Origin: Phycisphaerae bacterium
Lineage (GTDB): Bacteria; Planctomycetota; Phycisphaerae; Sedimentisphaerales; Anaerobacaceae
Length of the DNA stretch: 39,620 nt
Assembly (NCBI GenBank): GCA_030619925.1
Contig: JAUXAL010000036.1
Location: forward strand, 1 to 39,620
Reading direction: 5' to 3'
The position numbers and the translations under genes were made by a program. Positions 4,631-29,182 of the stretch are shown here, one piece after another. The notes under the pieces were generated by a model, which was not told the origin of the DNA, ran no database searches, and saw nothing but the letters and a program-made list of their open reading frames with translations. Numbering within the stretch: the stretch's first letter is position 1; each line of letters opens with the position of its first letter.

Positions 4631-6262
4631 TTATTCGGCTTCCATATACGGATAACGGAAGTTCCTCGCCGGCAGGAACGTTTCCTTGATAGCACGCGGC
4701 GAGACCCATCGTTCCAGGTTAAGCCAGCTGCCGGCCTTGTCGTTCGTGCCTGATGCCCGTGAGCCGCCGAACGGCTGTTGTGCCACGACCGCTCCCGTGG
4801 GCTTGTCGTTGACATAAAAATTACCCGCCGCGTGACGCAGCGTGTTCATCGCCTTAACTATCGCGCCGCGGTCCAGAGCAAATATCGCCCCGGTCAGCGC
4901 ATACGGCGATGTCTGGTCGCACAGTTCAAGCGTCTGATCATATTCACGTTCCGGATAAACATATACCGTCAACACCGGCCCGAAGACCTCTTCGACCATC
5001 AGCTTGGACTTCGGCTCTTTACTTATCACAACGGTCGGCTCAATGAAGTATCCCTTCGAGTCGTCGCATCCGCCGCCTATGATAATTTCCATATCGGGCG
5101 AATTCTTCGCGTATTCAATATATTCGCTGATGGTATCGAAGGCCTTTTTATCGATAATCGCACACATAAAGTTCTCAAAGTCGGTCACATCGCCCATCTT
5201 AATATCCTCTATCTCACTTAATAGCCGCTCTTTGACCTGCGGCCAGGTCGAATCAGGAATGTATGCCCGCGAAGCCGCCGAGCACTTCTGACCCTGATAT
5301 TCGTATGCCCCCCGCACCAGGGCCGCCACGAGAGCCTCAGTATCGGCACTGGCGTGCGCAAATATAAAGTCCTTTCCACCCGTTTCACCGACGATTCGAG
5401 GATATGAGACGTATTTGCGAATGTCTTTGCCCACCGTTAGCCAAATCGTTGAAAACACGTATGTGCTTCCGGTAAAGTGAATACCACCGAGCCTGACATC
5501 ATTTAGTGCCGGCGGCGCGACTACCGGCCCGGGACCAGGCACCATATTGATAACTCCCGGCGGCATACCGGCTTCTTCAAGGACTTTCATTATAAAGTAC
5601 GCCGGCAGTACCGCCGCCGATGCCGGCTTCCAAACCACCGTGTTACCCATCAGCGCCGGTGCCGTCGGAAGGTTACCTGCGATTGACGTAAAATTGAACG
5701 GTGTCAAAGCTAAAACAAACCCATCCAGCGGGCGGTGCTCCATATAGTTCAGCACCCCGGCTGTGGACATCGGCTGGTCCCCGTACACTTCCTCCATAAA
5801 ATGGGGGTTGAACCGCCAGAAATCTATCAGCTCGCACGCAGCGTCGACTTCCGCCTGGTGCGGTGTTTTGCTCATATTGAGCATGGTAGCGGCATTGATT
5901 TTCTGGCGGTATTTGCCCGCCAGCAGTTCCGCCGCCTTGAGCAGTACTACCGCCCTGGATTCCCAGGGCATCTCGCCCCAGCCCTTCTTAGCTTTTTCAG
6001 CCGCATCAACAGCCTTAATCGCGAATTCCGGGTCGGCCTGGTGATACTTGCCAAGCAGGTGCTGGTGATCGTGCGGACAGCGGATATCCGCAAGTTTGCC
6101 GTTACGCACTTCCTCGCCACCGATTATCATCGGCACTTCTACCTGTTCACCTAACATCTCTTTCAGCTTGGCACCCAATTCAGCACGTTCGGGACTGCCT
6201 GGCGTATACTGCAAACATGGTTCATTGACTGGCTGGGGAATGTGAAAAATACCGTTAAACAT
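4631..6262 (-). CDS. pruA: L-glutamate gamma-semialdehyde (P5C) dehydrogenase
   Basis: The enzyme catalyses the second step of proline degradation, oxidising glutamate-gamma-semialdehyde (hydrolysed P5C) to glutamate with NAD+. At 543 residues it matches the stand-alone, ALDH4A1-like type rather than the PutA fusion. Visible motifs are the aldehyde dehydrogenase glutamate region GETGGKDFIFAHA, the catalytic cysteine in YQGQKCSAASRAY, and the C-terminal QPFGGSRASGTNDKAG. The ATG at 6262 has a good upstream AAGGAGAG. No proline dehydrogenase lies in the window, so its partner must be elsewhere. The next gene downstream is lhgO, another feeder of the glutamate / 2-oxoglutarate pool. Confidence 0.95.
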   Translation of the reverse strand: MFNGIFHIPQPVNEPCLQYTPGSPERAELGAKLKEMLGEQVEVPMIIGGEEVRNGKLADIRCPHDHQHLLGKYHQADPEFAIKAVDAAEKAKKGWGEMPWESRAVVLLKAAELLAGKYRQKINAATMLNMSKTPHQAEVDAACELIDFWRFNPHFMEEVYGDQPMSTAGVLNYMEHRPLDGFVLALTPFNFTSIAGNLPTAPALMGNTVVWKPASAAVLPAYFIMKVLEEAGMPPGVINMVPGPGPVVAPPALNDVRLGGIHFTGSTYVFSTIWLTVGKDIRKYVSYPRIVGETGGKDFIFAHASADTEALVAALVRGAYEYQGQKCSAASRAYIPDSTWPQVKERLLSEIEDIKMGDVTDFENFMCAIIDKKAFDTISEYIEYAKNSPDMEIIIGGGCDDSKGYFIEPTVVISKEPKSKLMVEEVFGPVLTVYVYPEREYDQTLELCDQTSPYALTGAIFALDRGAIVKAMNTLRHAAGNFYVNDKPTGAVVAQQPFGGSRASGTNDKAGSWLNLERWVSPRAIKETFLPARNFRYPYMEAE

Positions 6263-13177: not shown

Positions 13178-14593
13178 ATGAATCGACGTGACTTTCTGAA
13201 AGCTTTGGGATTCGGGGTAACATCGCTGGCCGTGCCGGGGTGTGTTACCGGCTTTGAGCAGCTAACAGCAGCTTCTCAAGTACATAAAAAACCCAATTTC
13301 GTTTTCATTCTCATCGACGATATGGGCTGGACAGATGTAGCCTGCTATGGCAGTCGGTTTCACGAGACGCCCAATATTGACCGATTGGCCAGGCAAGGGA
13401 TGCGCTTCACCGATGCTTACGCGGCCTGTCCCGTCTGTTCTCCAACCCGCGCAAGTATTCTCGCCGGCCAGTACCCGGCACGGGTAGGTATCACAGATTT
13501 TATTCCGGGTCATCAGCGGCCCTGGGAAAAACTCAAGGTACCACAAAATCGTCTGCAGTTGCCACTTGAAGCGATTACTATTCCCGAAGCCCTTAAAGAA
13601 CATGGCTACACCACAGCCCATATTGGAAAGTGGCACCTTGGAGGACAGGCCTATTTCCCGGAACATCAGGGCTTCGATATGGCCATTCAAAGAGGCACTA
13701 ACCGCAATGACAAACAGGTTACCAGTTTCACCGACAGCGCTATCGACTTCATCCGGGCAAACTCAGACAAGCCGTTCTTTCTCCATTTGTCGCACCACAG
13801 CGTGCACATCCGGCTGGAAGCACCTCAGGAGCTAATCGACAAATACGAAAACAAACCCAAGCCGACAACCGGCGTTAATAACCCGACCTACGCAGCTATG
13901 GTTGAGCACTTAGATAACAGTATCGGTCGTATTATCGAAAAGCTCGACGAGCTGAACCTCGCTCATCGCACCGTTGTCGTCTTCTTCTCAGATAACGGCG
14001 GGTTGTATCAAGCCTACGGCGGTTACCGTGGTAAGAGGCAGATTGTTTCAACTAACGAACCTCTTCGCGGTGAAAAAGGAACACTTTACGAAGGTGGAAT
14101 CCGTGAGCCGCTGATTGTTCGCTGGCCCGGCGTAGTCAAGCCGGGAACCACCTGCAGCGCACCTGTCTCCAGCGTCGATTTCTATCCGACCTTTTTGGAG
14201 ATTGTCGGAGCCAAGGTCGACCCGGCCCACGTGCTCGACGGCGAAAGCATTCTGCCCTTGCTCAGGCAGACCGGTACGCTCGAACGCGACGCGATATACT
14301 GGCACTACCCGCACTATCATCACTCAACACCTGCCGGTGCAATCCGACAGGGCTACTGGAAGCTAATCGAGTTCTTTGAGGATGGCCGACTTGAGCTTTA
14401 TAATCTCAAACGCGATATCGCCGAGAAGCATAATCTCGCAACAAAGATGCCGCAAAAGGCGGCCCAGCTGCAGCGGAAGCTCGCCGTGTGGCGCAAATCG
14501 GTCGGCGCCAAGATGCCCACACCGAACCCGGACTTCGACCCGGCAAGGGCGCACGAATGGGGCCGTCGACAGCAAAAGAAACCCGGCAAATAA
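13178..14593 (+). CDS. Tat-exported type I sulfatase (CSPTR active site)
   Basis: This is a formylglycine-dependent sulfatase of the arylsulfatase A / alkaline-phosphatase superfamily, hydrolysing sulfate esters, probably on a polysaccharide. The N-terminus has the twin-arginine motif RRDFLK and a hydrophobic stretch ending in VPGC, so the protein may be Tat-exported and lipidated. Metal ligands Asp47-Asp48 lie in ILIDDMG. The catalytic motif CSPTR (87-91) needs Cys-to-formylglycine conversion by a maturase not present here. GKWHLGG and FFSDNGG supply further active-site residues. Length (471) is typical. A GGGAGA ribosome site precedes the ATG. It sits 50 bases after the fucosidase. Confidence 0.93.
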   Translation: MNRRDFLKALGFGVTSLAVPGCVTGFEQLTAASQVHKKPNFVFILIDDMGWTDVACYGSRFHETPNIDRLARQGMRFTDAYAACPVCSPTRASILAGQYPARVGITDFIPGHQRPWEKLKVPQNRLQLPLEAITIPEALKEHGYTTAHIGKWHLGGQAYFPEHQGFDMAIQRGTNRNDKQVTSFTDSAIDFIRANSDKPFFLHLSHHSVHIRLEAPQELIDKYENKPKPTTGVNNPTYAAMVEHLDNSIGRIIEKLDELNLAHRTVVVFFSDNGGLYQAYGGYRGKRQIVSTNEPLRGEKGTLYEGGIREPLIVRWPGVVKPGTTCSAPVSSVDFYPTFLEIVGAKVDPAHVLDGESILPLLRQTGTLERDAIYWHYPHYHHSTPAGAIRQGYWKLIEFFEDGRLELYNLKRDIAEKHNLATKMPQKAAQLQRKLAVWRKSVGAKMPTPNPDFDPARAHEWGRRQQKKPGK

Positions 14594-14687
14594 TTTCGTG
14601 AAGTTATGACTATGACGGCCAAATCTTGTAATAATCACTAAAATAAAGACAAATGTTAGCAGCCACACGTTTTAAAGGCCAAATATC

Positions 14688-16307
14688 ATGAAAAAAGACT
14701 GTATCGGAAGAAGGGAATTCTTACAGACTGCAGGAATCGGAGTCTCTTCGGTCCTACTGGGCCGGAAGGTTGCCGGTGCGCAACGTTCGGGGCCAAAGCC
14801 GTCCAGGCCGCGAAGCTCGTCCACGGCAAGGCCATCGAGGTCAGGTTTATCGTCACGCCCTAGTAACAAGCCTAACGTTCTCATTATTATGACGGACCAG
14901 CACCGAGCAGACCTTATGACATGCGCCGGCAGAGACCTGGTTCCCACGCCCAATATCGACCGCATTGCCTCGCGCGGCGTCCGGTTCACTAATGCCTATT
15001 GCCCATATCCCGTCTGCGTTGCCTCACGGATGGCTTTGCTGACCGGACTCTACGCACACAGTACCGGTGCAATCACGAACAAGAACCAGCTTGACTGGCG
15101 CTACCGCACGATGGCTAACCATTTCGCCGAAAATGGCTATCTGACCGCTCTGACAGGTAAAATGCACTTTGGAGACGCCCACAATCACGGCTTCAAGTAT
15201 TATATGTCGATCAACGACTGGCTGATGTACCTCGGCCCGAAGGTACAGCACTACGCCAACGAGATTGCCAACCATCCGCTCGGTCCGAAGTTTTTCGACA
15301 CTGTGGACGACGGCGGTGCCGGCCTGCCTGATATAGACGGGCTGTGGCCCAAAGGCAGCCCATGGGTTGGTAACGTCGAGCGTTGGAACTTTGACAGTAT
15401 GGCCTCGCAGCTCGAACCCGAAGACCACCTGGACATGTTCTTAGCTCGCCAGACGGCGAAGTTCATAACCAGATACCACCGGCAGCCGTTTTTTCTGGTC
15501 GTCAGTTTCATGAAACCACATTCTCCATTCTACCCGCCGAGGCAATGGGCGGAAAAATATCCCGTCAGTAAGATGAAACTTCCGGATGTTGGCGACATCT
15601 CCAAATATCCTCGGCACATCCAGCGGCGCATTCAAAATACAAAAAAGCTGGGGGAAAAACGCCAGCGGGCACACCGCGCCGGTTACCTGGGCAGCCTCGC
15701 ATTTGTCGACACGTGCATCGGCTATGTCTACAACGCGCTCGAGAAAGAAGGTCTGACCGATAACACCATCGTAGTGTACACTTCTGACCACGGAGAGATG
15801 GACGGCGACCATGGCCTCTACCAGAAGTTCTGTTTATTCGAGCCGGCCGTTCGAGTACCGTTAATTGTGAGCTACCCGAACCATCTTGGGCAGAACAAGG
15901 TAACCGGTGCGCTGACTGAGTACTTTGGCCTCTACCCAACGCTGGCCGAACTGACCGGTATCGAATCACCCAAAAAGACGACACTGCTCGATATAGCCGG
16001 GGCACCGGCCCGTATGGACGCTGCCAGCTTTGCCGACGTATTGCGCAACCCGGATATGAAGGGGCCAGACGCAGCGTTCAGTGAATTCAATTTAAGGTCC
16101 CGAACCTGTGAGTATATGATTCGCACTCGGCGTTATAAGTATATCTTCAATCACGGCTCAACCCATGAGTTGTACGACCACGAAGCCGACCCGGGCGAAT
16201 TCGTCAACCGTATCAACGACCCGGCTCTTAAAAAAGTCCGAGACGAGTTGTGTGAACAGCTCTTTGCGTGGTACAATCCCGAGAAGAATCCCTACCGTCC
16301 GACATAA
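14688..16307 (+). CDS. Tat-exported type I sulfatase (CVASR active site) with basic Ser/Arg/Pro linker
   Basis: A second, divergent sulfatase. The Tat motif GRREFLQ is followed by a hydrophobic segment ending near AGAQ. Then comes a strange linker of about 27 residues (33-60) composed almost only of S, R, P, K, G and A. The enzyme domain begins NVLIIMTDQH. The formylglycine motif is C110-V-A-S-R, the C-x-A-x-R variant accepted by anaerobic-type maturases. GKMHFG and VVYTSDHGEMDGDHG carry the other metal-site residues, which resemble the choline-sulfatase/iduronate-sulfatase branch. Read one base later, the linker DNA encodes a hydrophobic, codon-biased peptide ending at a TAG, so the linker may come from an old frameshift. 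The substrate is unknown. Confidence 0.9.
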   Translation: MKKDCIGRREFLQTAGIGVSSVLLGRKVAGAQRSGPKPSRPRSSSTARPSRSGLSSRPSNKPNVLIIMTDQHRADLMTCAGRDLVPTPNIDRIASRGVRFTNAYCPYPVCVASRMALLTGLYAHSTGAITNKNQLDWRYRTMANHFAENGYLTALTGKMHFGDAHNHGFKYYMSINDWLMYLGPKVQHYANEIANHPLGPKFFDTVDDGGAGLPDIDGLWPKGSPWVGNVERWNFDSMASQLEPEDHLDMFLARQTAKFITRYHRQPFFLVVSFMKPHSPFYPPRQWAEKYPVSKMKLPDVGDISKYPRHIQRRIQNTKKLGEKRQRAHRAGYLGSLAFVDTCIGYVYNALEKEGLTDNTIVVYTSDHGEMDGDHGLYQKFCLFEPAVRVPLIVSYPNHLGQNKVTGALTEYFGLYPTLAELTGIESPKKTTLLDIAGAPARMDAASFADVLRNPDMKGPDAAFSEFNLRSRTCEYMIRTRRYKYIFNHGSTHELYDHEADPGEFVNRINDPALKKVRDELCEQLFAWYNPEKNPYRPT

Positions 16308-17946: not shown

Positions 17947-18294
17947 TCATTGTTGTTCCAGATCGTTCAGGACATCTTCTATCAGCGGTTCAAGCTGGGG
18001 AATACGCACTTTGACAGTTTCCCAGACTATTTCCATATCAACGCCGAAATAAAAGTGTATCAGTTTATCCCGCATACCTGCCATATCCGACCAAGGAATC
18101 TCTGGATATTTTCTACTCACTGATGCAGGCAGTTGTTTGGTTGCCTCACCTGCGACTTCCAACTCCCTTACAACGGCACTTACGGTCTTTTTATCAGTTA
18201 TAAACTTTTCATAAGACATTCTTCCAACAAAACCCCGTGCATTACGGAAGGATTGAAGAATATCTCTCAAATAAACGCGGCAGTCGCGTTTCAT
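17947..18294 (-). CDS. hepT: HepT-like ribonuclease toxin (DUF86)
   Basis: This is a HEPN-domain toxin of the MntA/HepT (type VII) toxin-antitoxin system, thought to cleave RNA. The 115-residue, all-helical protein has the signature R-x4-H-x-Y: Arg75, His80, Tyr82 in RDKLIHFY. In studied systems the antitoxin nucleotidyltransferase AMPylates this tyrosine to silence the toxin, and Tyr82 is kept here. Its ATG overlaps the mntA stop as ATGA, so translation is coupled. It sits inverted between lpdA and lipB. After the stop, a perfect palindrome TTCACCGGTGAA (17910-17921) and a CCGCG/CGCGG hairpin follow. Confidence 0.92.
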   Translation of the reverse strand: MKRDCRVYLRDILQSFRNARGFVGRMSYEKFITDKKTVSAVVRELEVAGEATKQLPASVSRKYPEIPWSDMAGMRDKLIHFYFGVDMEIVWETVKVRIPQLEPLIEDVLNDLEQQ

Positions 18295-18611
18295 ATATAA
18301 ATAACCTCATTTAGTATCGTGTCTCTAAATTCCGGTCTCAGCGCTTTTATGGAAACCAGATCGATTTTAGCTCCCGTCTGATCTCTCAGATATCTTTCCA
18401 TCGCAACAAAGTCCAGCAAGTCCACGCGTCCGGAAAATTCCACCAAGACATCGACGTCACTACGCCTGTGTGCCTGGCCCCTGACATATGATCCGAAAAT
18501 CCCAAGACGTTTGACCTTGAATCTGTGGTTGAGCATCGGCTTGAGCTTTTTCAGGTTCTCTTCCAGGGAACCGAGACTACCTTTACCTGAAGTTTTTACC
18601 TTACTACTCAC
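18291..18611 (-). CDS. mntA: MntA-like minimal nucleotidyltransferase antitoxin
   Basis: The antitoxin partner of HepT. The minimal nucleotidyltransferase motif is complete: G40-S41, ten residues, D52-V-D54, plus a later acidic residue in KIDLVS. It is expected to transfer AMP to the HepT tyrosine. The start is GTG at 18611, with AAGGA nine bases before it; an upstream ATG in the same leader reads into a stop after three codons. The first 30 residues are a basic, Ser/Lys-rich extension. A good sigma70-type promoter lies 70-98 bases upstream. Antitoxin-first order with ATGA coupling to hepT matches the family. Confidence 0.92.
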   Translation of the reverse strand: MSSKVKTSGKGSLGSLEENLKKLKPMLNHRFKVKRLGIFGSYVRGQAHRRSDVDVLVEFSGRVDLLDFVAMERYLRDQTGAKIDLVSIKALRPEFRDTILNEVIYI

Positions 18612-18790: not shown

Positions 18791-19505
18791 CGAAAAAACA
18801 AAAAACTGTCTATTACGGATTCGCGATTGCGGACTTGCCGAGTATCGAGAGGTCTTGCAACTACAGCACCAACTGCGCGAAAAAAGGCGTAAGGGCAAAA
18901 TTCCAAATACCGTCTTAATCGCCGAGCACCCTGCTGTTATCACCCTCGGCGCCCGGCAAAGTGCCAACAAACTGCGGGCCAGCCGAGAAGATTTGGCACA
19001 ACGACATATCGACGTAGTCGATATCCGCAGAGGTGGCGGCACAACGGCCCACAATCCAAGCCAGCTGGTCTTTTATCCAATTTTACATTTGCAGGATTTG
19101 GGCCTTGGAATCAGCGAATATATCAGGCAGCTCGAAGCGATAGGCGCTGAACTCCTTGAACAATTAGGCGTCTACAGCTACAAAGGCCTGTCCTTGAGCG
19201 ACGAAAAAGAGATTCTTCGCTGCGCTCATAATGACAAAAGAGGAGCGAAGGAACGAAAAGGGTTTCCCGGCTTATGGGTCGGTCCGAGAAAGATTGCTTC
19301 TATTGGCGTACGCGTGTCAAAATTCGTAACCTATCACGGTATGGCAATAAACATTCAAAACGACCTGAGTATCTTCGATTTCATAGTACCCTGCGGCCTC
19401 GATGACATAGAAATGACATCGGTGCTGAAAGAAACCGGCAAACGCCACTCAATGAGTCAGGTAAAAGAAAGATTATCTCAACTACTTATAAGGCATTTCT
19501 CGTGA
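18741..19505 (+). CDS. lipB: Octanoyltransferase LipB with an internal repeat-derived insertion
   Basis: LipB moves octanoate from acyl carrier protein to lipoyl-domain lysines, the first step of lipoate synthesis. Motifs are HPAVITLGAR, RRGGGTTAHNPSQLVFYP (family RGGxxTxHGPGQ), WVGPRKIASIGV with the catalytic lysine, VTYHG, and IVPCGL with the catalytic Cys218. Between the lobe ending QLGVYSY and GLWVGPRK, where other LipB proteins have only a few residues, there is an insertion of about 22 residues (150-173) containing EILRCAHNDK, which is the translation of a dispersed intergenic repeat. Homology begins only near residue 24 (LLRIRDCG). I keep the longest GTG start; 18777 and 18786 are alternatives. 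Its stop overlaps the lipA GTG. Confidence 0.9.
   Translation: MQSAQSAAKIESVKTVAEKTKNCLLRIRDCGLAEYREVLQLQHQLREKRRKGKIPNTVLIAEHPAVITLGARQSANKLRASREDLAQRHIDVVDIRRGGGTTAHNPSQLVFYPILHLQDLGLGISEYIRQLEAIGAELLEQLGVYSYKGLSLSDEKEILRCAHNDKRGAKERKGFPGLWVGPRKIASIGVRVSKFVTYHGMAINIQNDLSIFDFIVPCGLDDIEMTSVLKETGKRHSMSQVKERLSQLLIRHFS
19209..19260 (+). repeat. EILRCAQNDK-type repeat inserted in lipB
   Basis: GATTCTTCGCTGCGCTCATA followed by ATGACAAAAGAGGAGCG matches a family of short repeats that I recall from many bacterial intergenic regions (gattcttcgcttcgctcagaatgac). Here it lies in frame inside lipB and is translated. The family identification is from memory, not a search. Confidence 0.55.
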
Positions 19506-20416
19506 AGCAGACAACAGAGGACAGACGACAGAAGACAGACGACAGAGCCCCGAGCGTGAGCGAGGGACGAAAACTACCATCGTGGCTGCGCAGGCCTTTA
19601 CCAGCCGATGAGGCTTTCCGCCATACCCAGCAGGTTCTAAGCTCTCTGGGCCTGGAAACTATATGCAGTAACGCAAACTGTCCAAATCGGGGCGAATGCT
19701 GGGCCAGAGGTACGGCAACAGTCTTGATTTTGGGTAACGTCTGTACGCGAAATTGCAGATTCTGTTCGCTAACGTGCGGCAAACCCGCGCCGCCGGACCT
19801 GACCGAGCCTGCCCGAATAGCCGAGATGGCAAAACAAATGCGACTGAAATACCTGGTCATTACCAGTGTCAACCGCGATGATTTATCGGACGGCGGCGCT
19901 GGCCATTTTCGCGATTGCGTTAACAAAGTGAGGCAGCAGTGCCCGGATATGAAATTTGAAATACTAACACCTGACTTCCGTCACTGCCAGGCTCAGGCCC
20001 TAAAAATTCTGCGCCCATGTTTACCTTTCGTATTCGCTCACAATGTCGAAACCGTACCCGCTCTGTACCCGACTGCCAGAGCCGGCGGAAACTACCAACG
20101 GTCTTTGAATTTGCTCAAAATAACCAAAAAAAACTACAATAATGTTCAGACTAAATCATCAATTATGCTCGGATTGGGAGAAACCGACGCCCAGGTCGAG
20201 CAGGTCCTAAAAGATCTGCGAAAGGTAGGCTGCGATAGAATTACTATCGGCCAATATCTAAAACCATCAAAAAATTCACTCGAGGTTGTCGAATACGTAA
20301 CCCCTGCCAAATTCGATTGGTGGAAGCAAAAAGCAATGGAATTGGGATTCTCCTGGATTACCTCTTCGCCGTTCACTCGCAGCTCATATTTCGCAGAACA
20401 GCAGAACACCTTATAG
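19502..20416 (+). CDS. lipA: Lipoyl synthase (radical SAM)
   Basis: LipA inserts two sulfurs into the octanoyl group to make lipoyl cofactors. The auxiliary 4Fe-4S cluster cysteines are C55, C60 and C66 in CSNANCPNRGEC, and the radical SAM cluster is C81-C85-C88 in CTRNCRFC. The C-terminal RSSY motif (293-296) gives the serine ligand of the auxiliary cluster. Normal LipA homology starts around residue 24 (KLPSWLRRPLP). The first 20 residues (TTEDRRQKTDDRAPS and so on) are encoded by a GACAGAG-type repeat and look unstructured. The GTG start overlaps the lipB TGA. The last 35 bases of the gene resemble blocks found before the downstream pilin genes. Confidence 0.94.
   Translation: MKQTTEDRRQKTDDRAPSVSEGRKLPSWLRRPLPADEAFRHTQQVLSSLGLETICSNANCPNRGECWARGTATVLILGNVCTRNCRFCSLTCGKPAPPDLTEPARIAEMAKQMRLKYLVITSVNRDDLSDGGAGHFRDCVNKVRQQCPDMKFEILTPDFRHCQAQALKILRPCLPFVFAHNVETVPALYPTARAGGNYQRSLNLLKITKKNYNNVQTKSSIMLGLGETDAQVEQVLKDLRKVGCDRITIGQYLKPSKNSLEVVEYVTPAKFDWWKQKAMELGFSWITSSPFTRSSYFAEQQNTL
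19508..19545 (+). repeat. GACAGAG repeat encoding the LipA N-terminus (copy 3, inverted)
   Basis: Units acagagg, acagacg, acagaag, acagacg, acagagc form an imperfect 7-8-base tandem array, the reverse complement of the CTCTGTC arrays at 6431-6456 and 7367-7392. Unlike those, this copy lies within coding sequence, just after the lipA GTG. Confidence 0.65.
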
Positions 20417-20498
20417 TGAAACTTCAGCCGCTCAAATCATTGTTATCGGACATCAGAAACAATCGGCACATTTTTCAGCACTATTTGGTTCAGCTATT

Positions 20499-20527
20499 TT
20501 GCCTCCATGCCAAACCAATCTTATACT
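20499..20527 (+). promoter_or_regulatory. Promoter of pilin paralogue 1
   Basis: TTGCCT and TATACT are separated by exactly 17 bases, followed by TTAATTAGG. The same arrangement precedes all four paralogues. A TTATCGGACAT element begins 56 bases before the -35 (20443). The predicted leader is about 52 bases and ends in GTGGGGAG before the ATG. Confidence 0.7.
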
Positions 20528-20584: not shown

Positions 20585-22018
20585 ATGACACCTATAAAGA
20601 AATTAGCTTATCTTAAGCAGAGATTAATTCATCTTAAGTCCCCGGGCGCTGTGCTTATCATATCTATGATATTTGTACTTATATTTTCCGCCCTGGCTGT
20701 CTCGATGGCCACCTTGTCCAGTACTAATGTCCAACTTGCTTCAAATCAGCACAAGGTCGGCTGTGCACTCGCGAGCGCCGAATCCGGCTTGGAAGTAATG
20801 CGATACTGGCTTAGCCGCGTCATAATACCAAGCTCGACATCATCAAGTAACTATTTCAGCACAATAGACAGTGCTCTCCACAATGACCTGGCTACCAACA
20901 GCATTTCGAATGTGTACACTGTCTGTGACGGCTCAATCATAACCATTCCAAGCGTTACACTGGGTTCGTCACAAGAGCAAAGTTTTCACGCAGTGATAAC
21001 GCCGCTGCCAACAGCGCTTGACCCCAGTGTAATCCACGTAGATGTCACCGGAGTGTACGGCTCAGTAACGAGGACAATAAGCGTAGATTACGTATTTGGA
21101 CCAAGACCAGATACGGTTTTTGACTATGGTGTAGCAACTAAAGGGTCCTTATCATTATCCGGCAATGCAGAAATTGAAGGCCCAAATAACGTCGCCGTTG
21201 ACTCAGACGTCTATATCGCAAGTGAAAGCAGCCTTTCGGCCCTGAAGATGACAGGGAACTCGAGAATAGGCGGCTCTGTCAAAATTGGCAATCCCAATGC
21301 CACCGCTGATTTAGGATCACGAGCTTCAATAGGTGGTGAGACTGGTGAGGCGGCTCTAAACAATGTCTTTATTGGTGCGGACCAGCCGGAGTTCCCTACT
21401 CCCGACCCCGGTTATTTCGAACAGTATGTCCAAAATGTTTTTGATCCCGCAACTGATACCACCACCGACCTGACACTCGAAAATATTAGAATCCCACCCG
21501 ACACCGACCCCACTTTTTCGGGCAATATCACGTTAAACGGCATTATTTACATCGAAACACCTAATGTAGTAACATTTTCAGGAGGTACGACAATAACCGG
21601 AATTATCGTCGGCAACGGCGATGATGCAGATAATTCCGGAACAAATCAGATCCTATTCAGAGGTAGCGTGGACAGCTCACCGGTTAGTGCCCTGCCTGAT
21701 GAGTCACAATTCGCTGGTATTAAGGATGAAACCGGAACATTTATCGTGGCTCCGGGCTTTTCTTTGTCATTTGGCGGCAATTTCAACGCACTTACGCTTA
21801 CTGGCGCCATAGCCGGTAACGGAATCGAATTTTTCGGCAACGCCGGCGGAACAATCAACGGCTCGATAATCGATTATTCTTCTGACGGAACAATGAACGT
21901 GACCGGCAACAGCGATGTTTATTTCAATCCGTCCGGTACAACCGAGATACCCGCAGGATTCCTGCCGAGCATAGGATTGCAGTATGATCCTGACTCCTAC
22001 GTGGAAACCATGCAGTAA
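20585..22018 (+). CDS. PilX-like pseudopilin with long repeat-rich C-terminus, paralogue 1
   Basis: A basic leader of 21 residues ends in Gly, followed by AVLIISMIFVLIFSALAVSM, which fits a type IV prepilin-peptidase site and N-terminal pilin helix. ALASAESGLEVMRYW is the PilX_N / GspK-like signature; Glu5 is absent, as in that group. Residues from about 180 onward carry G-N-x, T-G-N and I-x-G repeats suggesting a beta-helix or stacked beta-solenoid, including SIGGETG and GNAGGTINGSIIDY. It probably assembles as a minor or tip subunit of a type IV pilus or secretion pseudopilus; no assembly ATPase or secretin is in the window. The leader has a 21-bp duplication (ATCTTAAG at 20610 and 20631) absent from the other copies. 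The ATG at 20585 has GTGGGGAG; a longer frame from 20507 would include the promoter. Confidence 0.82.
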   Translation: MTPIKKLAYLKQRLIHLKSPGAVLIISMIFVLIFSALAVSMATLSSTNVQLASNQHKVGCALASAESGLEVMRYWLSRVIIPSSTSSSNYFSTIDSALHNDLATNSISNVYTVCDGSIITIPSVTLGSSQEQSFHAVITPLPTALDPSVIHVDVTGVYGSVTRTISVDYVFGPRPDTVFDYGVATKGSLSLSGNAEIEGPNNVAVDSDVYIASESSLSALKMTGNSRIGGSVKIGNPNATADLGSRASIGGETGEAALNNVFIGADQPEFPTPDPGYFEQYVQNVFDPATDTTTDLTLENIRIPPDTDPTFSGNITLNGIIYIETPNVVTFSGGTTITGIIVGNGDDADNSGTNQILFRGSVDSSPVSALPDESQFAGIKDETGTFIVAPGFSLSFGGNFNALTLTGAIAGNGIEFFGNAGGTINGSIIDYSSDGTMNVTGNSDVYFNPSGTTEIPAGFLPSIGLQYDPDSYVETMQ

Positions 22019-22158
22019 TATTTATTCGTTATCCACCGCATTATGAGCCGCAGCTCATATTTCTCAGAGACTATCAGGTGAACCCTCGGGTTGTTCTTAT
22101 CGGACATCAGAAACATTCGGCACATTTTAGCTCAGCTATTTTGCTTTATTCAGCTATT

Positions 22159-22187
22159 TTGCCCTTATGTCAAATATGGCTTATACT
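22159..22187 (+). promoter_or_regulatory. Promoter of pilin paralogue 2
   Basis: TTGCCC, 17 bases, TATACT. TTATCGGACATCAGAAAC (22097-22114) lies 62 bases before the -35 and is identical to the element at 20443-20460. Upstream, CGCAGCTCATATTTC (22050-22064) matches the 3' end of lipA. An ATGAGC/GCTCAT hairpin (22043-22058) could terminate paralogue 1. Confidence 0.7.
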
Positions 22188-22250
22188 TTAATTGGCATAG
22201 TCTCGCGTTTTGAGATAGTTTCTATGTGGGCTTTTTACGGTGAGGGGAGA

Positions 22251-23648
22251 ATGAAGCCCGTAAAAAAAATAGTCTACCGGAAGCACCGGGGCGCCGTACT
22301 TATCATATCTATGATATTTATACTTATATTCTCTGCGCTGGGTGTCTCGATGGCTACCCTCTCCGGCACTAATGTCCAACTTGCTTCAAATCAGCAGCAG
22401 GTCAATCGTGCCCTTTCAGCTACGGAGTCCGGGCTTAACGTGGTACGTTATTACCTCTCAAACGTGACAATATCCGGCTCAGTTTCGCCCTCGAGCAGAC
22501 TCCAGACCGTTGCTGCTGCCCTCCAGAGTAATCTGGCCGACGCGGGTATAACAAATATTGTTGCTAATTATGATCCGGCAACCGCAACCTTAACTATCTC
22601 AGACGTAACACTGAATTCACAAACCAGCCAATTGTTTGGTGCGGTTATCAGTCAGACTGACTCAAATTCTCTGCAGGTGGATATAACCGGCAGCAGCCGA
22701 CGGTTCAGCAGAACAATAAGGACAAACTTCGATTTTTCTTCAAGTGCCAGCGGTGTTTTTGATTTTGGAGTCGCGACCAGAGGGCCTTTGAGCTTAACAG
22801 GAAATGCAAGAATTCAAGGACTCAATAGTACCGACGAAGCGAAGGTTTATATTGAAAGCCCTGGCGAGCTTCTGGCTTTGAGTATGATAGGTAACTCTCA
22901 AATAGAGGGTAACGTCAGTGTTGTCAACTCTACTGCTTTTGCCACAGTAGCTGGTAACAGCTCGATTGGTGGAGAAACCGGCCAGGATGCGATCGATAAT
23001 CACGTTTCTTTCGGTGTTGATTCTGTGGAACTACCCACTCCTGACACCAGCATTTTTGCGAGCTATGCGACAAATATTGTGGATGCTTCTACCGATACCC
23101 ACGGCAATCAAACATTTGAGAATATCAGAATCGTAGCTGGAGCTAACCCCACTTTCTCCGGCAACATAACAATCAATGGTGTAATTTTCATTGAATCGCC
23201 AAACACAGTTGCGTTCACGGGAAATACCACGATAACAGGCCTTATCGTTGCCGATGGGGACCTCGACTCGCCAATCAGTTCCGACCAAATTCAATTTGGA
23301 GGTAATTTGACCAGTCACTCCGTTTCGCAGTTGCCCGGCGATCCTGTTTTCGATGGTCTTCGAGACCAGACGGGCACTTTCATTTTGGCCCCCGGGTTTC
23401 GATGCTCTTTCACAGGTAACTTCAACACTGTGAACGGCGCAATTGCTGCCAGCGGAGTAAGTTTTACCGGCAATGCAAACGGCACAATTACAAACTCAGT
23501 AATTAACTACTCTGAAGAGCCTATGAGTCTTACCGGTAATGCCAGATTACGTTTCGACCGCAGCGCCAGCGTTGATAACCCCAGCGGCTTTAGCAGTAAC
23601 CAGGTTCTGGAATTTCTGCCCAGCAGCTATTCGGAACTGCCTCCGTAA
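22251..23648 (+). CDS. PilX-like pseudopilin with long repeat-rich C-terminus, paralogue 2
   Basis: 465 residues. A 14-residue basic leader (MKPVKKIVYRKHRG) precedes the hydrophobic helix AVLIISMIFILIFSALGVSM. The PilX_N region reads ALSATESGLNVVRYY. Residues 80-180 are the most divergent among the copies. Then FDFGVATRGPLSLTGNARIQG opens the repeat-rich part, with SIGGETGQDAIDNHV, NPTFSGNITINGVIFIESPN, TGTFILAPGF and ANGTITNSVINYS, all shared with its neighbours. Likely an exported minor pseudopilin; the partner machinery is not present. The ATG at 22251 follows GGTGAGGGGAG. The gap to paralogue 1 is 232 bases and carries its own promoter. Confidence 0.82.
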   Translation: MKPVKKIVYRKHRGAVLIISMIFILIFSALGVSMATLSGTNVQLASNQQQVNRALSATESGLNVVRYYLSNVTISGSVSPSSRLQTVAAALQSNLADAGITNIVANYDPATATLTISDVTLNSQTSQLFGAVISQTDSNSLQVDITGSSRRFSRTIRTNFDFSSSASGVFDFGVATRGPLSLTGNARIQGLNSTDEAKVYIESPGELLALSMIGNSQIEGNVSVVNSTAFATVAGNSSIGGETGQDAIDNHVSFGVDSVELPTPDTSIFASYATNIVDASTDTHGNQTFENIRIVAGANPTFSGNITINGVIFIESPNTVAFTGNTTITGLIVADGDLDSPISSDQIQFGGNLTSHSVSQLPGDPVFDGLRDQTGTFILAPGFRCSFTGNFNTVNGAIAASGVSFTGNANGTITNSVINYSEEPMSLTGNARLRFDRSASVDNPSGFSSNQVLEFLPSSYSELPP

Positions 23649-23791
23649 TACTTGTATTTCAATCAATATTACGTCCTATATCTCACAGAGTCAGAAAGTA
23701 CCTTATAGCCGTATGTAAACCATAGCAACTTATTTTTATCGGACATTAAAAGTCAATCGCTGCACGTTTGATATCACTTAGCTCTAATTTC

Positions 23792-23820
23792 TTGTCTCCA
23801 CACCGGGCATTTCTTATATT
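23792..23820 (+). promoter_or_regulatory. Promoter of pilin paralogue 3
   Basis: TTGTCT, 17 bases, TATATT, with TTATCGGACATTAAAAGTC beginning at 23736, 56 bases before the -35. The region from the paralogue 2 stop to here aligns by eye with the region ahead of paralogue 4. In the leader, CGCCGC and GCGGTG can pair and would mask the G-rich ribosome site. Confidence 0.7.
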
Positions 23821-23883
23821 TTAATTGGAACATGGAAGTTGCTAAAACGCCGCCTGAGGACTTTTGCGGTGGGGGGGGAAAAA

Positions 23884-25272
23884 ATGAAGCTCTTAGAAAG
23901 AATAGTCTACGTGAAGCGCCAGGGCGCTGTGCTTATCATATCTATGATATTTATACTCATATTTTCCGCCTTGGCTGTCTCGATGGCTACCCTTTCTGGC
24001 ACTAATGTCCAACTTGCTTCAAATCAGCACAAGGTCAACTGTGCGCTCGCCAGCGCCGAATCCGGTCTGCAAGTAATGCGATACTGGCTGAGCCGGGTCA
24101 CAATGCCAAGTTCGACACAACCATCTGACTATCTCAGCACAATAATCGATACTCTGCAAAATGATCTGGCTGCCAACAGCATTTCGAATATCACGGTAAA
24201 TCTTGACGGCTCAATTCAGCCAGTAACGCTGGACTCGGGAAGTCAACAAATATTCGATGGGGGAATTTTAATCGACTCCAATGACCCCAACATCTTGCAG
24301 GTTTATACCACAGGCAGGAGCGGTCAGATAACGCGAACAATAAGAGTGAATTATAATATCGAACCCTACAGACATCCTATTTTTGATTATGGAATCGCAA
24401 CCAAAGGCCCTCTGCATATACAGGGCAATGTCGATGTCAACGGGCTCAACGAAAGCGCTGAAGCTGACATTTACATCGAGAGTGAGTACGACCTCAACGC
24501 CCTGTCCATGACGGGCAACGCTTCAATAGCAGGCGACGTCAGCATCGTTAATCCTGACGCTATAGTGGGTGTCAGCAGTTCCAGCTCAATAGGTGGCGAA
24601 ACCGGCCAGGACGCGATCGATAACCATGTTACCATCGGTGTCCCCTCTACTGATTTCCCTATCCCGAATCCCGCCGCTTTCGAGCATTACATCGAAAACA
24701 TCTTTGACCCCAACACCGACACCACCAAAAACATAACGCTCGAAAATATTAGAATCCCCGCCGGCACTAATCCTCATTTTACCTCCAACGTAATCCTGAG
24801 GGGAATCGTGTTTATCGAGTCCCCCAACGTCGTTAAATTCAACGCCGGCACCGAGATCACCGGCATCATTATTGGCGACGGTAACCTGGATTTCCCCTCC
24901 GAAGAAAATCAGCTCATATTCCGGGGACATGTACAGAGTCGCAGTGTCTCAGAGCTACCCGACGAAGAAAGGTTTAGCGGCATCAAGCAGGAAACAGGGA
25001 CGTTCATATTAGCCCCTGGATTTAGCGCCTCCTTCGGTGGCAGCTTCGGGACCATCAACGGCGTTATCGCCGCCAGCGCTATAGAATTCTTTGGAAATGC
25101 CGGCGGCACCATCAACGGCTCAGTAATAAACTACGCCGACACCCCTATGACCCTGCGTGGCAACTCCAATCTGGTCTTCAATCACTCCGCATTAGCGGAG
25201 CACCCGGCCGGCTTCGAGACCACTAAAGTACTTGAGTTTCAACCCAGTACCTACTCAGAACTGCCTCTGTAA
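23884..25272 (+). CDS. PilX-like pseudopilin with long repeat-rich C-terminus, paralogue 3
   Basis: 462 residues. Leader MKLLERIVYVKRQG, then AVLIISMIFILIFSALAVSM and ALASAESGLQVMRYW. About 122 nucleotides (24097-24218, encoding the region after WLSR) are almost identical to paralogue 4, with two differences by eye, while the flanking C-terminal half is much more divergent; this suggests recent duplication or gene conversion. The C-terminal part contains SIGGETGQDAIDNHV and GNAGGTINGSVINYA. The ATG at 23884 is preceded by an exceptional G-run (GGTGGGGGGGG), which could vary in length. Probable surface or periplasmic pilus component. Confidence 0.82.
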   Translation: MKLLERIVYVKRQGAVLIISMIFILIFSALAVSMATLSGTNVQLASNQHKVNCALASAESGLQVMRYWLSRVTMPSSTQPSDYLSTIIDTLQNDLAANSISNITVNLDGSIQPVTLDSGSQQIFDGGILIDSNDPNILQVYTTGRSGQITRTIRVNYNIEPYRHPIFDYGIATKGPLHIQGNVDVNGLNESAEADIYIESEYDLNALSMTGNASIAGDVSIVNPDAIVGVSSSSSIGGETGQDAIDNHVTIGVPSTDFPIPNPAAFEHYIENIFDPNTDTTKNITLENIRIPAGTNPHFTSNVILRGIVFIESPNVVKFNAGTEITGIIIGDGNLDFPSEENQLIFRGHVQSRSVSELPDEERFSGIKQETGTFILAPGFSASFGGSFGTINGVIAASAIEFFGNAGGTINGSVINYADTPMTLRGNSNLVFNHSALAEHPAGFETTKVLEFQPSTYSELPL

Positions 25273-25418
25273 TCTTTGTATTTCAACCATTATTGCGTCT
25301 CAAAGCTCGCAGATTCAGAAAGTACCTTATGGCCGTATCTAAAAACCATAGAAGCTTATTTTTATCAGACATTGAAAAGTCAATTGTTGCACTTTTGATG
25401 TTATTTAGCCTTAATTTT

Positions 25419-25447
25419 TTGGCTCCACACCGTGCATTTATTATACT
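25419..25447 (+). promoter_or_regulatory. Promoter of pilin paralogue 4
   Basis: TTGGCT, 17 bases, TATACT, with the TTATC(A)GACATTGAAAAGTC element starting at 25362. The leader contains GTTGCTAAAACGC as in paralogue 3, plus a GCCC/GGGC hairpin just before the ribosome site GGTGGGGG. Confidence 0.7.
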
Positions 25448-25510
25448 TTAATTAGCAGATAGAAGTTGCTAAAACGCTGCCCGAGTGGGGCTTTTATGGT
25501 GGGGGAAAAA

Positions 25511-26890
25511 ATGAAGCTCCTAAAAAAAATAGTCTACCTGAAGCACCAGGGCGCTGTGCTTCTCATATCTATGATATTTGTACTTATATTTTCCGCCCTG
25601 GCTGTCTCAATAGCCGTCCTGTCCGGCACAAATGTCCAACTTGCTTCAAATCAGCACAAGGTCGACCGTGCCCTCGCCAGCGCCGAATCCGGTCTGGAAG
25701 TAACGCGATTTTGGCTGAGCCGTGTCACAATGCCAAGTTCGACACAACCATCTGACTATCTCAGCACAATAATCGATACTCTGCAAAATGATCTGGCTGC
25801 CAACGGCATTTCGAATATCACGGTAAATTTTGACGGCTCAATTCAACCTGTGACCCTGGACTCCACAACTGGACGAACCTTCAACGGGCAAAGTTTAATC
25901 GACCCCAATGACCCCAACACTTTGCAGGTTTACACCACAGGCGACAGCGGTCAGATTACACGCACAATAAAAGTTTGTTATGACATTGAACCCTATGAAT
26001 ATCCTATTTTCGATTTCGGCCTGGCAATAAAGGGGCCGCTGAATTTTAACGGCAATCCGACCCTCAACGGTGTAAATGCCGACAGTGAAGCCGATATTTT
26101 TATTGAAAGCCAAAATGACAATCTCGCACTGCTCGTCACCGGTAACACAAACTTTGACGGCGATATCACCATCTCCAACACAAACGCTAATGTTGACCTC
26201 CAAGGTGACGTGTTAATAGGCGGCGACAGCGGCCAGGCAGCCATAGACAATCACGTCTTTATAGGCGCTGACCCTATAGAATTTCCTCTCCCTGACACAG
26301 AGCGTTTTCTGCAATATGCAACAGGTGATATCATTAAACGTTCCACTGACACATCAAGTAGTATGACGTTAACCAATGCAACAATAAAGGCCGGAACCAA
26401 CCCCGTTTTCGAGGGCAATGTCATAATAGAGGGAGTTCTGTTCATCCAACCACCCAACACCGTTACATTTAACAGCAATGTTGACGTTAAGGGCCTGATA
26501 GTTGGTAATGGCGATGTGGATAATCCTGGGACAAACAACATATCCTTCCTTGGTAATTTTGAGACCAACCCGTACCCTCCAGGGGCCGAGTTTGACGCGA
26601 TTCGCTCCGAAACCGGTTCTTCAATACTTGCTCCGGGCTTCGCTGTCTCCTTCGAGGGCAATTTCTCTGCTCTGGGCGGTGTTATGGCTGTAAGTGGCGC
26701 AAACTTTTCCGGCAACGTAAATGCGACGATTGAAGGAACGATTATTAATTACTCTGAAAACCCAACAACAATACAGGGCAACGCCACATTGAATTTTGAC
26801 CGATCAGACGATATTAAGACCCCTGCAGGTTTTGATCTGCTCCGTGTATTAATATTTGATTCGTCCTCTTACGAGGAGCTTGTGCTCTAA
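25511..26890 (+). CDS. PilX-like pseudopilin with long repeat-rich C-terminus, paralogue 4
   Basis: 459 residues. Leader MKLLKKIVYLKHQG, helix AVLLISMIFVLIFSALAVSI, PilX_N region ALASAESGLEVTRFW. It shares its N-terminal 120 residues with paralogue 3 almost exactly, but its C-terminal half is the most divergent of the four: IGGDSGQAAIDNHV replaces IGGETGQ..., and the loop after TGNT differs. The final Y-x-E-L motif is kept in paralogues 2-4. Its 3' flank no longer resembles the other intergenic blocks, so it is the right end of the array. The ATG at 25511 follows GGTGGGGGAAAAA. Confidence 0.82.
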   Translation: MKLLKKIVYLKHQGAVLLISMIFVLIFSALAVSIAVLSGTNVQLASNQHKVDRALASAESGLEVTRFWLSRVTMPSSTQPSDYLSTIIDTLQNDLAANGISNITVNFDGSIQPVTLDSTTGRTFNGQSLIDPNDPNTLQVYTTGDSGQITRTIKVCYDIEPYEYPIFDFGLAIKGPLNFNGNPTLNGVNADSEADIFIESQNDNLALLVTGNTNFDGDITISNTNANVDLQGDVLIGGDSGQAAIDNHVFIGADPIEFPLPDTERFLQYATGDIIKRSTDTSSSMTLTNATIKAGTNPVFEGNVIIEGVLFIQPPNTVTFNSNVDVKGLIVGNGDVDNPGTNNISFLGNFETNPYPPGAEFDAIRSETGSSILAPGFAVSFEGNFSALGGVMAVSGANFSGNVNATIEGTIINYSENPTTIQGNATLNFDRSDDIKTPAGFDLLRVLIFDSSSYEELVL

Positions 26891-27472: not shown

Positions 27473-29182
27473 TCATTTCCCCAATTGAGCCGGATAGTAA
27501 TAACCCATCGTCTGAGCGACGACTCCCAACCGGTATTGATGGTCCTGCATAAGACAGACACGCCGGTCGGAAGCGGCAATGGTGGTGGTGTAAATGCGAA
27601 GTTCTCCCTTTAAGCTGGTAATCACCTCTTCCCGATGGTCACCCAGACAATCAACCACTGCGATGACTCGGCCTTCAATCAGCTGCATCGCTTCGGCGCC
27701 CCAATCGCGAATCCCCCTGGAGACGACCACTTCTTTTTGTGCGTCCGCATCCCACCAAACCGGACGCGGGCTTAAGGTTCCTTTTTTCCGAAACTCTATC
27801 AGCCGGCCCTTCGCGCTATAAAGCCAACGCTCTTGATAATCTCTTTCGCCGCTATACACCTCCATACCAGGCCAGTCCGCGAGGATGTACCCAACCATTC
27901 CCTGAGCGTGAATATGGCGGGTAGGTTTCTTGTGGGCCCAGAGTTTGCGACCGCTCCTGGCGCCCACCACGCATATCCCGTCGGTTTCCTGGCGCCTCTC
28001 GAAACCATAAAAAACCTCCAGGCCACGATTGTCCGGGTCAATATCGGCAACGTAACAAACATCCGGATGTCCCATCTCCAGCGTCCAAAGACCTTTGCCG
28101 TTATCGTCCAGCACCGCCGCGCCGATAACCAGCTCATCCTTACCATCCTGGTCCACGTCGGCTGTAACCAACCCGTGAGACCCCTGCCCCCGGTAGTTTC
28201 TCGGCTCCTGCGGCGCTTCCCAGTACCAGATTTGATTGAAATCTTTATCCAGCGCCTGCGTCTTGATAAGGTTGTAGGTACCTCGCTGCATAATCAGCGA
28301 TGGCGTCCGGCCGTCAAGATATGCCACCGTAAGAAAATTGCGGCAGTAACGATTGTAATCAGAAAACCCGTCCCGACTCAGCCATGCCGTTTCAGCCACA
28401 ACTTCGCCGGTTTGCCCATCAATCTTGACCAGATATTCGGGACCGGTTTGGACAAGCCCCTTTTCGTCCCGAGGGTCTCCAACGCCGGCCTTGCAATAGA
28501 CCTCGGCTCTGCCATTGGCATCGACGTCATAGACAATCCACGGCGAATACCAGATACCCGCCTCGATGGACCAGCCCATATCGTACCGCCACATCATCGT
28601 GCCATCCAGACGATAGGCTTCGAGTTTGTAAGTCGTGGTGCTGGGTTTCCAATAGCCCGGCTTCTGGTAAGGGTCGCTGTTAAAATTGGGTTGCTTGATG
28701 ATAAACTCATAAGCACCGTCACCGTCCAGGTCGCTGATACCCACCTTCTGAAAATCATAATCCCCTTTCAGCGGAATACTGATATAAGACTTGGCCCTGC
28801 CGGTCAACGTAATCGCGACTTCCCCCAACCGTTCGGATCTCCTCGACCTATTCTTACTGTATTTATACAGTTCATAAATATAGGTTTTTCCGCCGGCACC
28901 CTTTTCGAGACTTTTATCCACAAAGTTGGTCAGTCTGTACGGCCTGCCCTTTGTCAAAAGCGCAGATTGATTGGTGCCAGCTTCAGAACTGCGCCTGGTT
29001 ATTAGAAAAGCGACATCTTCGGTGTCAGCATCAAGCAGACGCCAGCCAAGAAAGACTGAGCCGTCCTCACGCTCAAGGGCCACCAATCCACGGTCCAGAT
29101 TTTCCACTCCTGATACTGGAATAGACAAAGCAAAAAGTAAAAGAAACTCAATCATCCCGGCAAACAACAATCGACATCTCAT
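27473..29182 (-). CDS. Exported rhamnogalacturonan lyase, PL11 family
   Basis: Cleaves the rhamnogalacturonan I backbone of pectin by beta-elimination. A signal peptide covers about the first 25 residues (hydrophobic IEFLLLFALSIPVSG). The mature protein starts ENLDRGLVALEREDG, matching the N-terminal fibronectin-like domain of YesW-type PL11 enzymes (ENLDRGLVAV). The eight-bladed propeller follows, with calcium-binding loops DLDGDGAYEF, DVDANGRAEV and DVDQDGKDEL. Length 569 is a little short of the roughly 600 of characterised enzymes. AAAGGAG lies ten bases before the ATG and the gene begins 16 bases after the thiL stop, so it is probably co-transcribed with argH and thiL. No other pectin genes are adjacent. 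Confidence 0.9.
   Translation of the reverse strand: MRCRLLFAGMIEFLLLFALSIPVSGVENLDRGLVALEREDGSVFLGWRLLDADTEDVAFLITRRSSEAGTNQSALLTKGRPYRLTNFVDKSLEKGAGGKTYIYELYKYSKNRSRRSERLGEVAITLTGRAKSYISIPLKGDYDFQKVGISDLDGDGAYEFIIKQPNFNSDPYQKPGYWKPSTTTYKLEAYRLDGTMMWRYDMGWSIEAGIWYSPWIVYDVDANGRAEVYCKAGVGDPRDEKGLVQTGPEYLVKIDGQTGEVVAETAWLSRDGFSDYNRYCRNFLTVAYLDGRTPSLIMQRGTYNLIKTQALDKDFNQIWYWEAPQEPRNYRGQGSHGLVTADVDQDGKDELVIGAAVLDDNGKGLWTLEMGHPDVCYVADIDPDNRGLEVFYGFERRQETDGICVVGARSGRKLWAHKKPTRHIHAQGMVGYILADWPGMEVYSGERDYQERWLYSAKGRLIEFRKKGTLSPRPVWWDADAQKEVVVSRGIRDWGAEAMQLIEGRVIAVVDCLGDHREEVITSLKGELRIYTTTIAASDRRVCLMQDHQYRLGVVAQTMGYYYPAQLGK

Follow-up and report, generated by a model that had tools for sequence, protein, structure and literature searches.

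Few tip proteins determine the targets that type 4 filaments grip, and little is known about how tips are exchanged. The closest described system is ComZ of Thermus thermophilus (PDB 6qvi), in which an ice-binding-protein-type beta-solenoid is inserted before the last strand of a GspK-like pilin module; it has been argued to sit at the tip (PMC6561018). Likewise, PilB and PilC of Streptococcus sanguinis carry a functional module on a small pilin module and are thought to present it at the tip for adhesion (PMC8179133, PMC9934059). Here we describe four paralogous genes that stand in tandem downstream of lipA in 39,620 nucleotides of a Phycisphaerae bacterium (contig JAUXAL010000036.1 of assembly GCA_030619925.1; this whole stretch is the window below). 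We think it reasonably likely that this array encodes four ComZ-type modular tip pilins, which would serve as alternative ligand-binding filament tips.

The array differs from each described relative. Its proteins are only 12–15% identical to ComZ and have strongly acidic solenoids, and comZ adjoins a partner gene, pilA2, whereas the array genes follow lipA in four copies. The S. sanguinis modules are of other kinds, vWA in PilB and Ig-like plus lectin in PilC, and their genes lie in an operon with PilA. PilX and GspK (the K subunit) share the PilX_N helix and the absence of glutamate at mature position 5 (Glu5), but their extra domain is small or alpha-helical where the array proteins carry a large beta-solenoid. 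About half of the solenoid region aligns with the tapirins of Caldicellulosiruptor (4wa0, 6n2b, 6n2c); identity as tapirins was rejected, the NCBIfam tapirin model scoring 15.3 bits against a cut-off of 600, and that in copy 1 only of the four. The predicted solenoid fold is that of the DUF3494 ice-binding proteins, which are 8–16% identical and whose Pfam family has no match at E up to 1 in the four copies; the shared fold is no evidence of ice binding.

Our searches of the open-licence literature found no earlier description of such an array, nothing joining PilX, Planctomycetes, and type IV pili, and nothing on tandem minor pilin paralogues with gene conversion. For ComZ with Planctomycetes, the matches listed were unrelated microbiome work and S. 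sanguinis PilB; for solenoid pilins, ComZ came first. Tapirin with cellulose and type IV pili went unmatched, but the name is often spelled with an accent that the search cannot match. The array offers, in compact natural form, candidate alternative tips whose solenoids belong to two old classes; each gene has its own promoter-like site, and one copy is an apparent chimera. If our reading is right, it extends to another phylum an architecture solved in Thermus, and whether tip swapping changes filament action becomes testable.

Four Intact Pilin-like Genes in Tandem

The array comprises the following genes, whose solenoids fall into two classes, A and B, described below.

20585..22018, plus strand: copy 1, 477 amino acids; PilX_N helix, pilin module, class B beta-solenoid
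22251..23648, plus strand: copy 2, 465 amino acids; class B beta-solenoid, whose branch in the solenoid tree is the longest among the four copies
23884..25272, plus strand: copy 3, 462 amino acids; apparent chimera of a class A-type pilin module and a class B beta-solenoid
25511..26890, plus strand: copy 4, 459 amino acids; class A beta-solenoid

The four frames run full-length and head to tail without an internal stop, with start-to-start distances of 1666, 1633, and 1627 bases and intergenic gaps of 232, 235, and 238 bases. The original prediction, made from the DNA alone, of four full-length tandem paralogues is thus borne out, and at the sequence level all four copies are intact. Protein identity to copy 1 is 49% for copy 2, 57% for copy 3, and 48% for copy 4; together with the intact frames and conserved upstream sites, this rules out a chance repeat. 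PilX_N scores above its Pfam gathering score in all four copies (32.2–34.6 bits versus 25.5) and is matched by all 22 proteins of our alignment A3 at E up to 0.5 (best 2.2e-9), in line with the PilX_N helix that had been proposed. DUF7305, the other family suggested, gave no match at E up to 1 in the four copies or up to 0.5 in the 22 A3 proteins.

When the source assembly (4.02 Mb, 141 contigs, 92.8% complete) was searched, copy 2 retrieved the four array genes and one short weak match, and the PilX_N model retrieved the four copies and one match below cut-off. Among the matches listed in 90 family genomes, the longest other tandem run is three (genome G043), although contig breaks may conceal longer ones, and genome G083 has two tandem copies and one piece at a contig end.

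A Predicted ComZ-like Architecture

AlphaFold models of copies 3 and 4 (mean pLDDT 88.1 and 86.1) predict the fold and the order of elements with good confidence: a pilin module with an ice-binding-protein-type beta-solenoid inserted before its last strand. The modeled N-terminal helix spans residues 9–69 in copy 3 and 13–69 in copy 4, and the pilin strands lie within residues 110–162, so both the prepilin-type helix and the pilin fold expected of these proteins are present in the models. The solenoids are placed as follows.

24376..25203, plus strand: beta-solenoid of copy 3, about residues 165–440; last strand 447–460
25997..26821, plus strand: beta-solenoid of copy 4, about residues 163–437; last strand 444–457

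Foldseek returned a sole strong match for the copy 3 model, ComZ, the Thermus tip pilin (E 2.5e-8), and the ComZ alignment reaches the C terminus of both models, following the predicted order of pilin module, beta-solenoid, and long C-terminal strand. Self-comparison of the solenoid gave no significant match that would indicate internal sequence repeats.

We also assembled relatives: 111 open reading frames (ORFs) of 440–520 amino acids yielded 78 family members, and 53 after duplicate removal. None of the 53 has Glu5, and in 52 a glycine ends the type III leader, with hydrophobic residues next. Tip complexes are reported to be capped by a subunit lacking Glu5 (PMC10191384; PMC9934059), and modular pilins have been held likely to be at the tip (PMC8179133).

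Conserved Promoter-like Sites before Each Copy

Each gene is preceded by two conserved elements.

20443..20453, plus strand: conserved upstream element TTATCGGACAT, copy 1
22097..22107, plus strand: conserved upstream element TTATCGGACAT, copy 2
23736..23746, plus strand: conserved upstream element TTATCGGACAT, copy 3
25362..25372, plus strand: conserved upstream element, one-base variant TTATCAGACAT, copy 4
20499..20527, plus strand: promoter-like TTG..-N17-TATACT, copy 1
22159..22187, plus strand: promoter-like TTG..-N17-TATACT, copy 2
23792..23820, plus strand: promoter-like TTG..-N17-TATATT, copy 3
25419..25447, plus strand: promoter-like TTG..-N17-TATACT, copy 4

In every copy the promoter-like site (TTG-N17-TATAYT) ends about 57–63 bases 5' of the start codon, the upstream element (TTATCRGACAT) lies 142–154 bases 5' of it, and a G-rich stretch precedes the start. 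The genome contains three instances of TTATCGGACAT with AA after three intervening bases, each of them within the array, and none of the reversed control pattern. Among 49 upstream stretches of relatives, TATCGGAC is found in 10 and TATACTTT in 18; these stretches are related rather than independent, and no 8-mer exceeded 4 once their bases were shuffled. Both the promoter-like site and the upstream element stay in register when 11 upstream regions are aligned. Conservation of the sites before all four copies and before relatives' genes supports one promoter per gene, as had been claimed from the DNA, and suggests that the sites would act as promoters.

Candidate Alternative Tips for Machines Encoded Elsewhere

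In the reading that we prefer, a prepilin peptidase would cut each precursor after the glycine of its type III leader, and the mature protein would be built into a type 4 filament by way of its long helix at the N terminus. Lacking Glu5 and bearing a bulky domain, it would cap the filament and display a beta-solenoid of about 275 residues, which may bind a surface, a glycan, or DNA; the large domain probably grips something outside the cell. Because a filament has room for one cap (or cap complex) and the predicted promoters are separate, the paralogues are most likely alternative tips for filaments whose machines are encoded elsewhere. In Xylella, paralogous minor pilins are reported to have mostly opposing roles (PMC9956873).

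The earlier interpretation of the proteins as tip subunits agrees with the predicted pilin fold, the missing Glu5, the ComZ-like element order, the conserved promoter-like sites, and the presence of a cluster for pilus machinery on a different contig, although its premise of diversified distal parts proved only partly right. Weighing against alternative tips with their own promoters, one source allows that modular pilins may instead lie in the filament body (PMC8179133), and a sigma-70-like scan found 14 sites, the four array sites among them, where shuffles expect 10.1 (standard deviation 3.4), so that the scan alone proves little.

A pilus ATPase, secretin, or prepilin peptidase had been reported absent nearby, and none appeared when Pfam was run on 20 of the window's 61 other ORFs of at least 100 amino acids. 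Matches to all three lie on other contigs of the same genome: several to T2SSE and secretin, and one to prepilin peptidase, marginal and partial. One such contig holds a cluster of PilM-PilN, PilO, and secretin, with T2SSE and T2SSF genes close by. It also encodes a protein of 137 residues (L097:12591-13004) that begins like a pilin but lacks both Glu5 and a solenoid. This protein has no Pfam match at E up to 0.01 and is a weak relative (E 4.4e-4, 36% over 59 residues); the array proteins may be elaborated versions of a subunit like it. Inside the same cluster five small ORFs of 128–131 amino acids stand in a run (L097:8425-10583), the first four at 434–435 base spacing, and the two scanned are single-domain response regulators. 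The marginal prepilin peptidase match lies about 2 kb from a ComEC match on one contig (L098; own genome C75:26000-33000).

Candidate partners were also sought. No pilin family that might supply a PilA2-type partner occurs among the 20 ORFs scanned of those 61. A PilY1 profile gave no match, but its control matched in no genome, making the result uninformative. Neighboring genes were rejected as partners, since the ones scanned in relatives have housekeeping or unrelated products (Lon, carbamoyl-phosphate synthase, dihydropteroate synthase, transglutaminase, a fucose-pathway enzyme, and two NosD-like proteins).

The proteins might instead be DNA receptors of a competence pilus, like ComZ, the solenoid and pilin module catching DNA at the tip for uptake. 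This has in its favor a predicted architecture the same as that of ComZ, whose DNA binding has been shown (PMC6561018), and a ComEC-family match of 172 bits on the contig of the prepilin peptidase match. We nonetheless consider it unlikely: four copies and two classes seem to exceed the needs of a DNA receptor, and the window solenoids are strongly acidic (pI 4.1–4.3; net charge -20 to -28, compared with a mean of -28 and a range of -40 to -4 across the 53 proteins). The charge is a weak argument because ComZ itself shows no obvious positive patches.

Two Old Solenoid Classes

A tree of the 53 solenoids separates class A (18 proteins, including copy 4) from class B (35, including copies 1–3) with support 100/100; by this measure the split is ancient. 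When class profiles were run over the 90 genomes, either class was found in 66: class A in 29, class B in 57, and both in 20. These are hand counts, their total agreeing with the automatic tally, in which a place went to the profile with more bits and fragments were included; G002, with a 77-position class A fragment, is counted under both, and among the 20 genomes with both the A match is a fragment in one and the B match in another. At E up to 1e-10, the class B profile matched 6 of 392 genomes drawn from the phylum, our own genome included, all of the same order.

The age of the two classes also fits a scheme in which A and B are two subunits of one tip complex (compare GspK with GspI/GspJ, or ComZ with PilA2), extra B copies being spares. 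Of the 29 genomes that have a class A match, 20 also have class B, and A and B genes adjoin in four loci (L071, L074, L075, and L076). However, 37 of the 66 genomes show no class A and 9 no class B, a tally in which many of the assemblies are incomplete, and with Glu5 absent from all 53 proteins, two Glu5-less subunits per tip would be unusual. On balance such a complex seems to us distinctly unlikely. It is very improbable that the proteins are GspK-like pseudopilins of a type II secretion system, recognizing secreted enzymes: despite several T2SSE and secretin matches in the genome, the similarity is weak (NCBIfam T2SS_GspK, E 0.007–0.041), the scores of 13.4–16.0 bits fall far under the cut-off of 130, and the extra domain, alpha-helical in GspK (PMC8179133), is predicted here to be a beta-solenoid. 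Least probable of all are redundant or decaying duplicates with one working copy, for although copies 1 and 2 have long solenoid-tree branches (0.52 and 0.61, versus a median of 0.19), all four frames are intact, each with a promoter-like site and G-rich stretch before its start codon, and distal nonsynonymous divergence is 0.40–0.53 where synonymous divergence is 2.9 in one pair and saturated beyond computing in five, as under purifying selection.

A hypervariable adhesin on a constant N terminus is rejected as a family rule, because the distal part is more conserved than residues 61–165: mean identity is 63.4% versus 42.9% among the 32 class B proteins of other genomes and 60.5% versus 51.9% among the 18 class A proteins, and the helix alone (residues 14–60) is conserved about like the distal part (62–64%). 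Diversified distal parts are real within the window, whose three class B solenoids are unusually divergent (52.5% mean identity, versus 63.4% among the 32 elsewhere), but they do not describe the relatives.

Some relatives also encode longer proteins of about 540–550 amino acids (L020:6182-7816, L037:6690-8318, L021:7286-8923; up to about 690 elsewhere), often beside array-type genes. Their resemblance to the array proteins lies mainly in the N-terminal 190 residues, some showing weak similarity (about 26%) beyond, and PilX_N was confirmed in those of L020 and L037; searches of the window's genome revealed no complete copy. A NosD/beta-helix protein (L021:5194-6570, Pfam run on L021 only; homologues in L022, L025, and L026) is encoded close to the class B gene in relatives where that gene does not adjoin lipA.

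Copy 3 as an Apparent Chimera

Copies 3 and 4 share one tract.

23620..24397, plus strand: exchange tract in copy 3, shared with copy 4 at about 25244–26024; promoter region and pilin module

Per 60-base block, the two copies are 70–100% identical inside the tract and 30–63% outside, a pattern that makes it cover the promoter region and pilin module and end near the start of the solenoid. The claim that residues 80–180 vary fits copies 1 and 2 and fails for copies 3 and 4, which are 95% identical over alignment columns 81–120. At fourfold sites, copies 3 and 4 have the same base in 52 of 64 cases within alignment columns 1–160 and in 24 of 70 beyond (Fisher p 3.8e-8). A permutation test placed an exchange segment at codon columns 62–163, a result that none of 5000 shuffles reached. 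Two other pairs gave short segments that few shuffles reached (copies 2 and 4, codons 11–19, 5 of 5000 shuffles; copies 1 and 3, codons 64–78, 21 of 5000); for the remaining three pairs the counts were 284, 767, and 4988 of 5000. On this evidence, the near-identical N-terminal parts of copies 3 and 4 are owed to recent exchange, not to constraint alone.

The two halves of copy 3 also have different affinities. Compared with proteins of other genomes, its residues 61–165 average 56% identity with class A and 42% with class B, and its solenoid 42% with class A and 57% with class B. In the pilin-module tree, a branch supported 99/96 groups the 18 class A proteins with copy 3 and the proteins of loci L053 and L079, apart from the remaining 32 proteins of class B. 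A solenoid tree constrained to unite copies 3 and 4 was rejected (p 5.4e-26; 33 rows, hand-picked from the 53 proteins). Copy 3 therefore looks like a natural chimera, in which recombination appears to have joined a class B solenoid to the promoter and pilin module of class A; we infer the direction, from class A onto copy 3, from the tree.

Several results count against the chimera. Holding class A together in the pilin-module tree was not rejected (p 0.131, 53 rows), nor was holding the copy 4 group together in the N-terminal tree (p 0.056, 33 rows). Homogenization of N-terminal parts as a general habit of such arrays was unsupported across the nine arrays compared: a marked excess of N-terminal over distal silent-site identity was seen in window copies 3 and 4 (78% versus 32%; less for copy 1 against either) and in L075 (50% versus 20%, on small counts), and class B-class B arrays elsewhere show the opposite pattern by protein identity. 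Because the tree tests do not reject the unity of class A, the case for a chimera is built on the silent sites, the tract test, and the 99/96 branch.

More speculatively, the array may be a tip-shuffling system, in which recombination between copies reassorts promoter-plus-pilin modules with ligand-binding solenoids and so lets one lineage maintain and remake its set of alternative tips. The promoter-plus-pilin module might then determine which filament is used and when, and the solenoid what is gripped. Copy 3 would be one tentative product of such shuffling, and the L053 and L079 proteins, both of G083 and with a class B solenoid on a class A-type pilin module, might be others.

A further array, in G043, possibly reflects an exchange of the other module: its copies 1 and 2 share 81% identity across 223 bases at their distal ends (L071:4071-4293 versus 5658-5880), and their N-terminal parts differ more.

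Growth of the Array beside lipA

The upstream gene and a trace of it lie here.

19502..20416, plus strand: lipA, upstream neighbor, kept in many relatives
22049..22068, plus strand: relic of the lipA 3' end before copy 2; 19 of 20 bases match

Of 41 distinct loci of the family, at least 21 have lipA on the same strand ahead of the pilin-like gene; of the other 20, 5 have under 700 bases upstream, and a few shortened duplicates hide a lipA seen in longer copies. No shuffle of 2000 scored as high as the relic before copy 2. The corresponding matches for copies 3 and 4 are weak, since 5 and 11 of 2000 shuffles did as well, compared with 14 of 2000 for a control stretch upstream of lipB, and we therefore claim only that of copy 2. 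In another genome (L081), a perfect 45-base repeat of the lipA end stands before the second copy, and the duplicated unit containing that end is 92% identical over 1673 alignment columns. The relic and this duplication together indicate that tandem duplication of the gene next to lipA produced at least part of the set and probably left the copy 2 relic. Telling against this origin, none of six gaps in four array loci (two each in L071 and L073, one each in L075 and L076) holds a lipA relic, although one L073 gap is only 23 bases.

Further upstream, between lpd and lipB, a HepT-like ribonuclease (PF01934, E 3.7e-27) stands beside a nucleotidyltransferase-domain protein (PF01909) at 17947–18611 on the minus strand; the stretch with this HepT-MntA-type pair is about 86% identical at the DNA level in L023 and L024. 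Polysaccharide-degrading genes also occur near the array, where two sulfatases lie upstream (within 13178–16307, plus strand) and a family 11 rhamnogalacturonan lyase lies downstream (27473–29182, minus strand).

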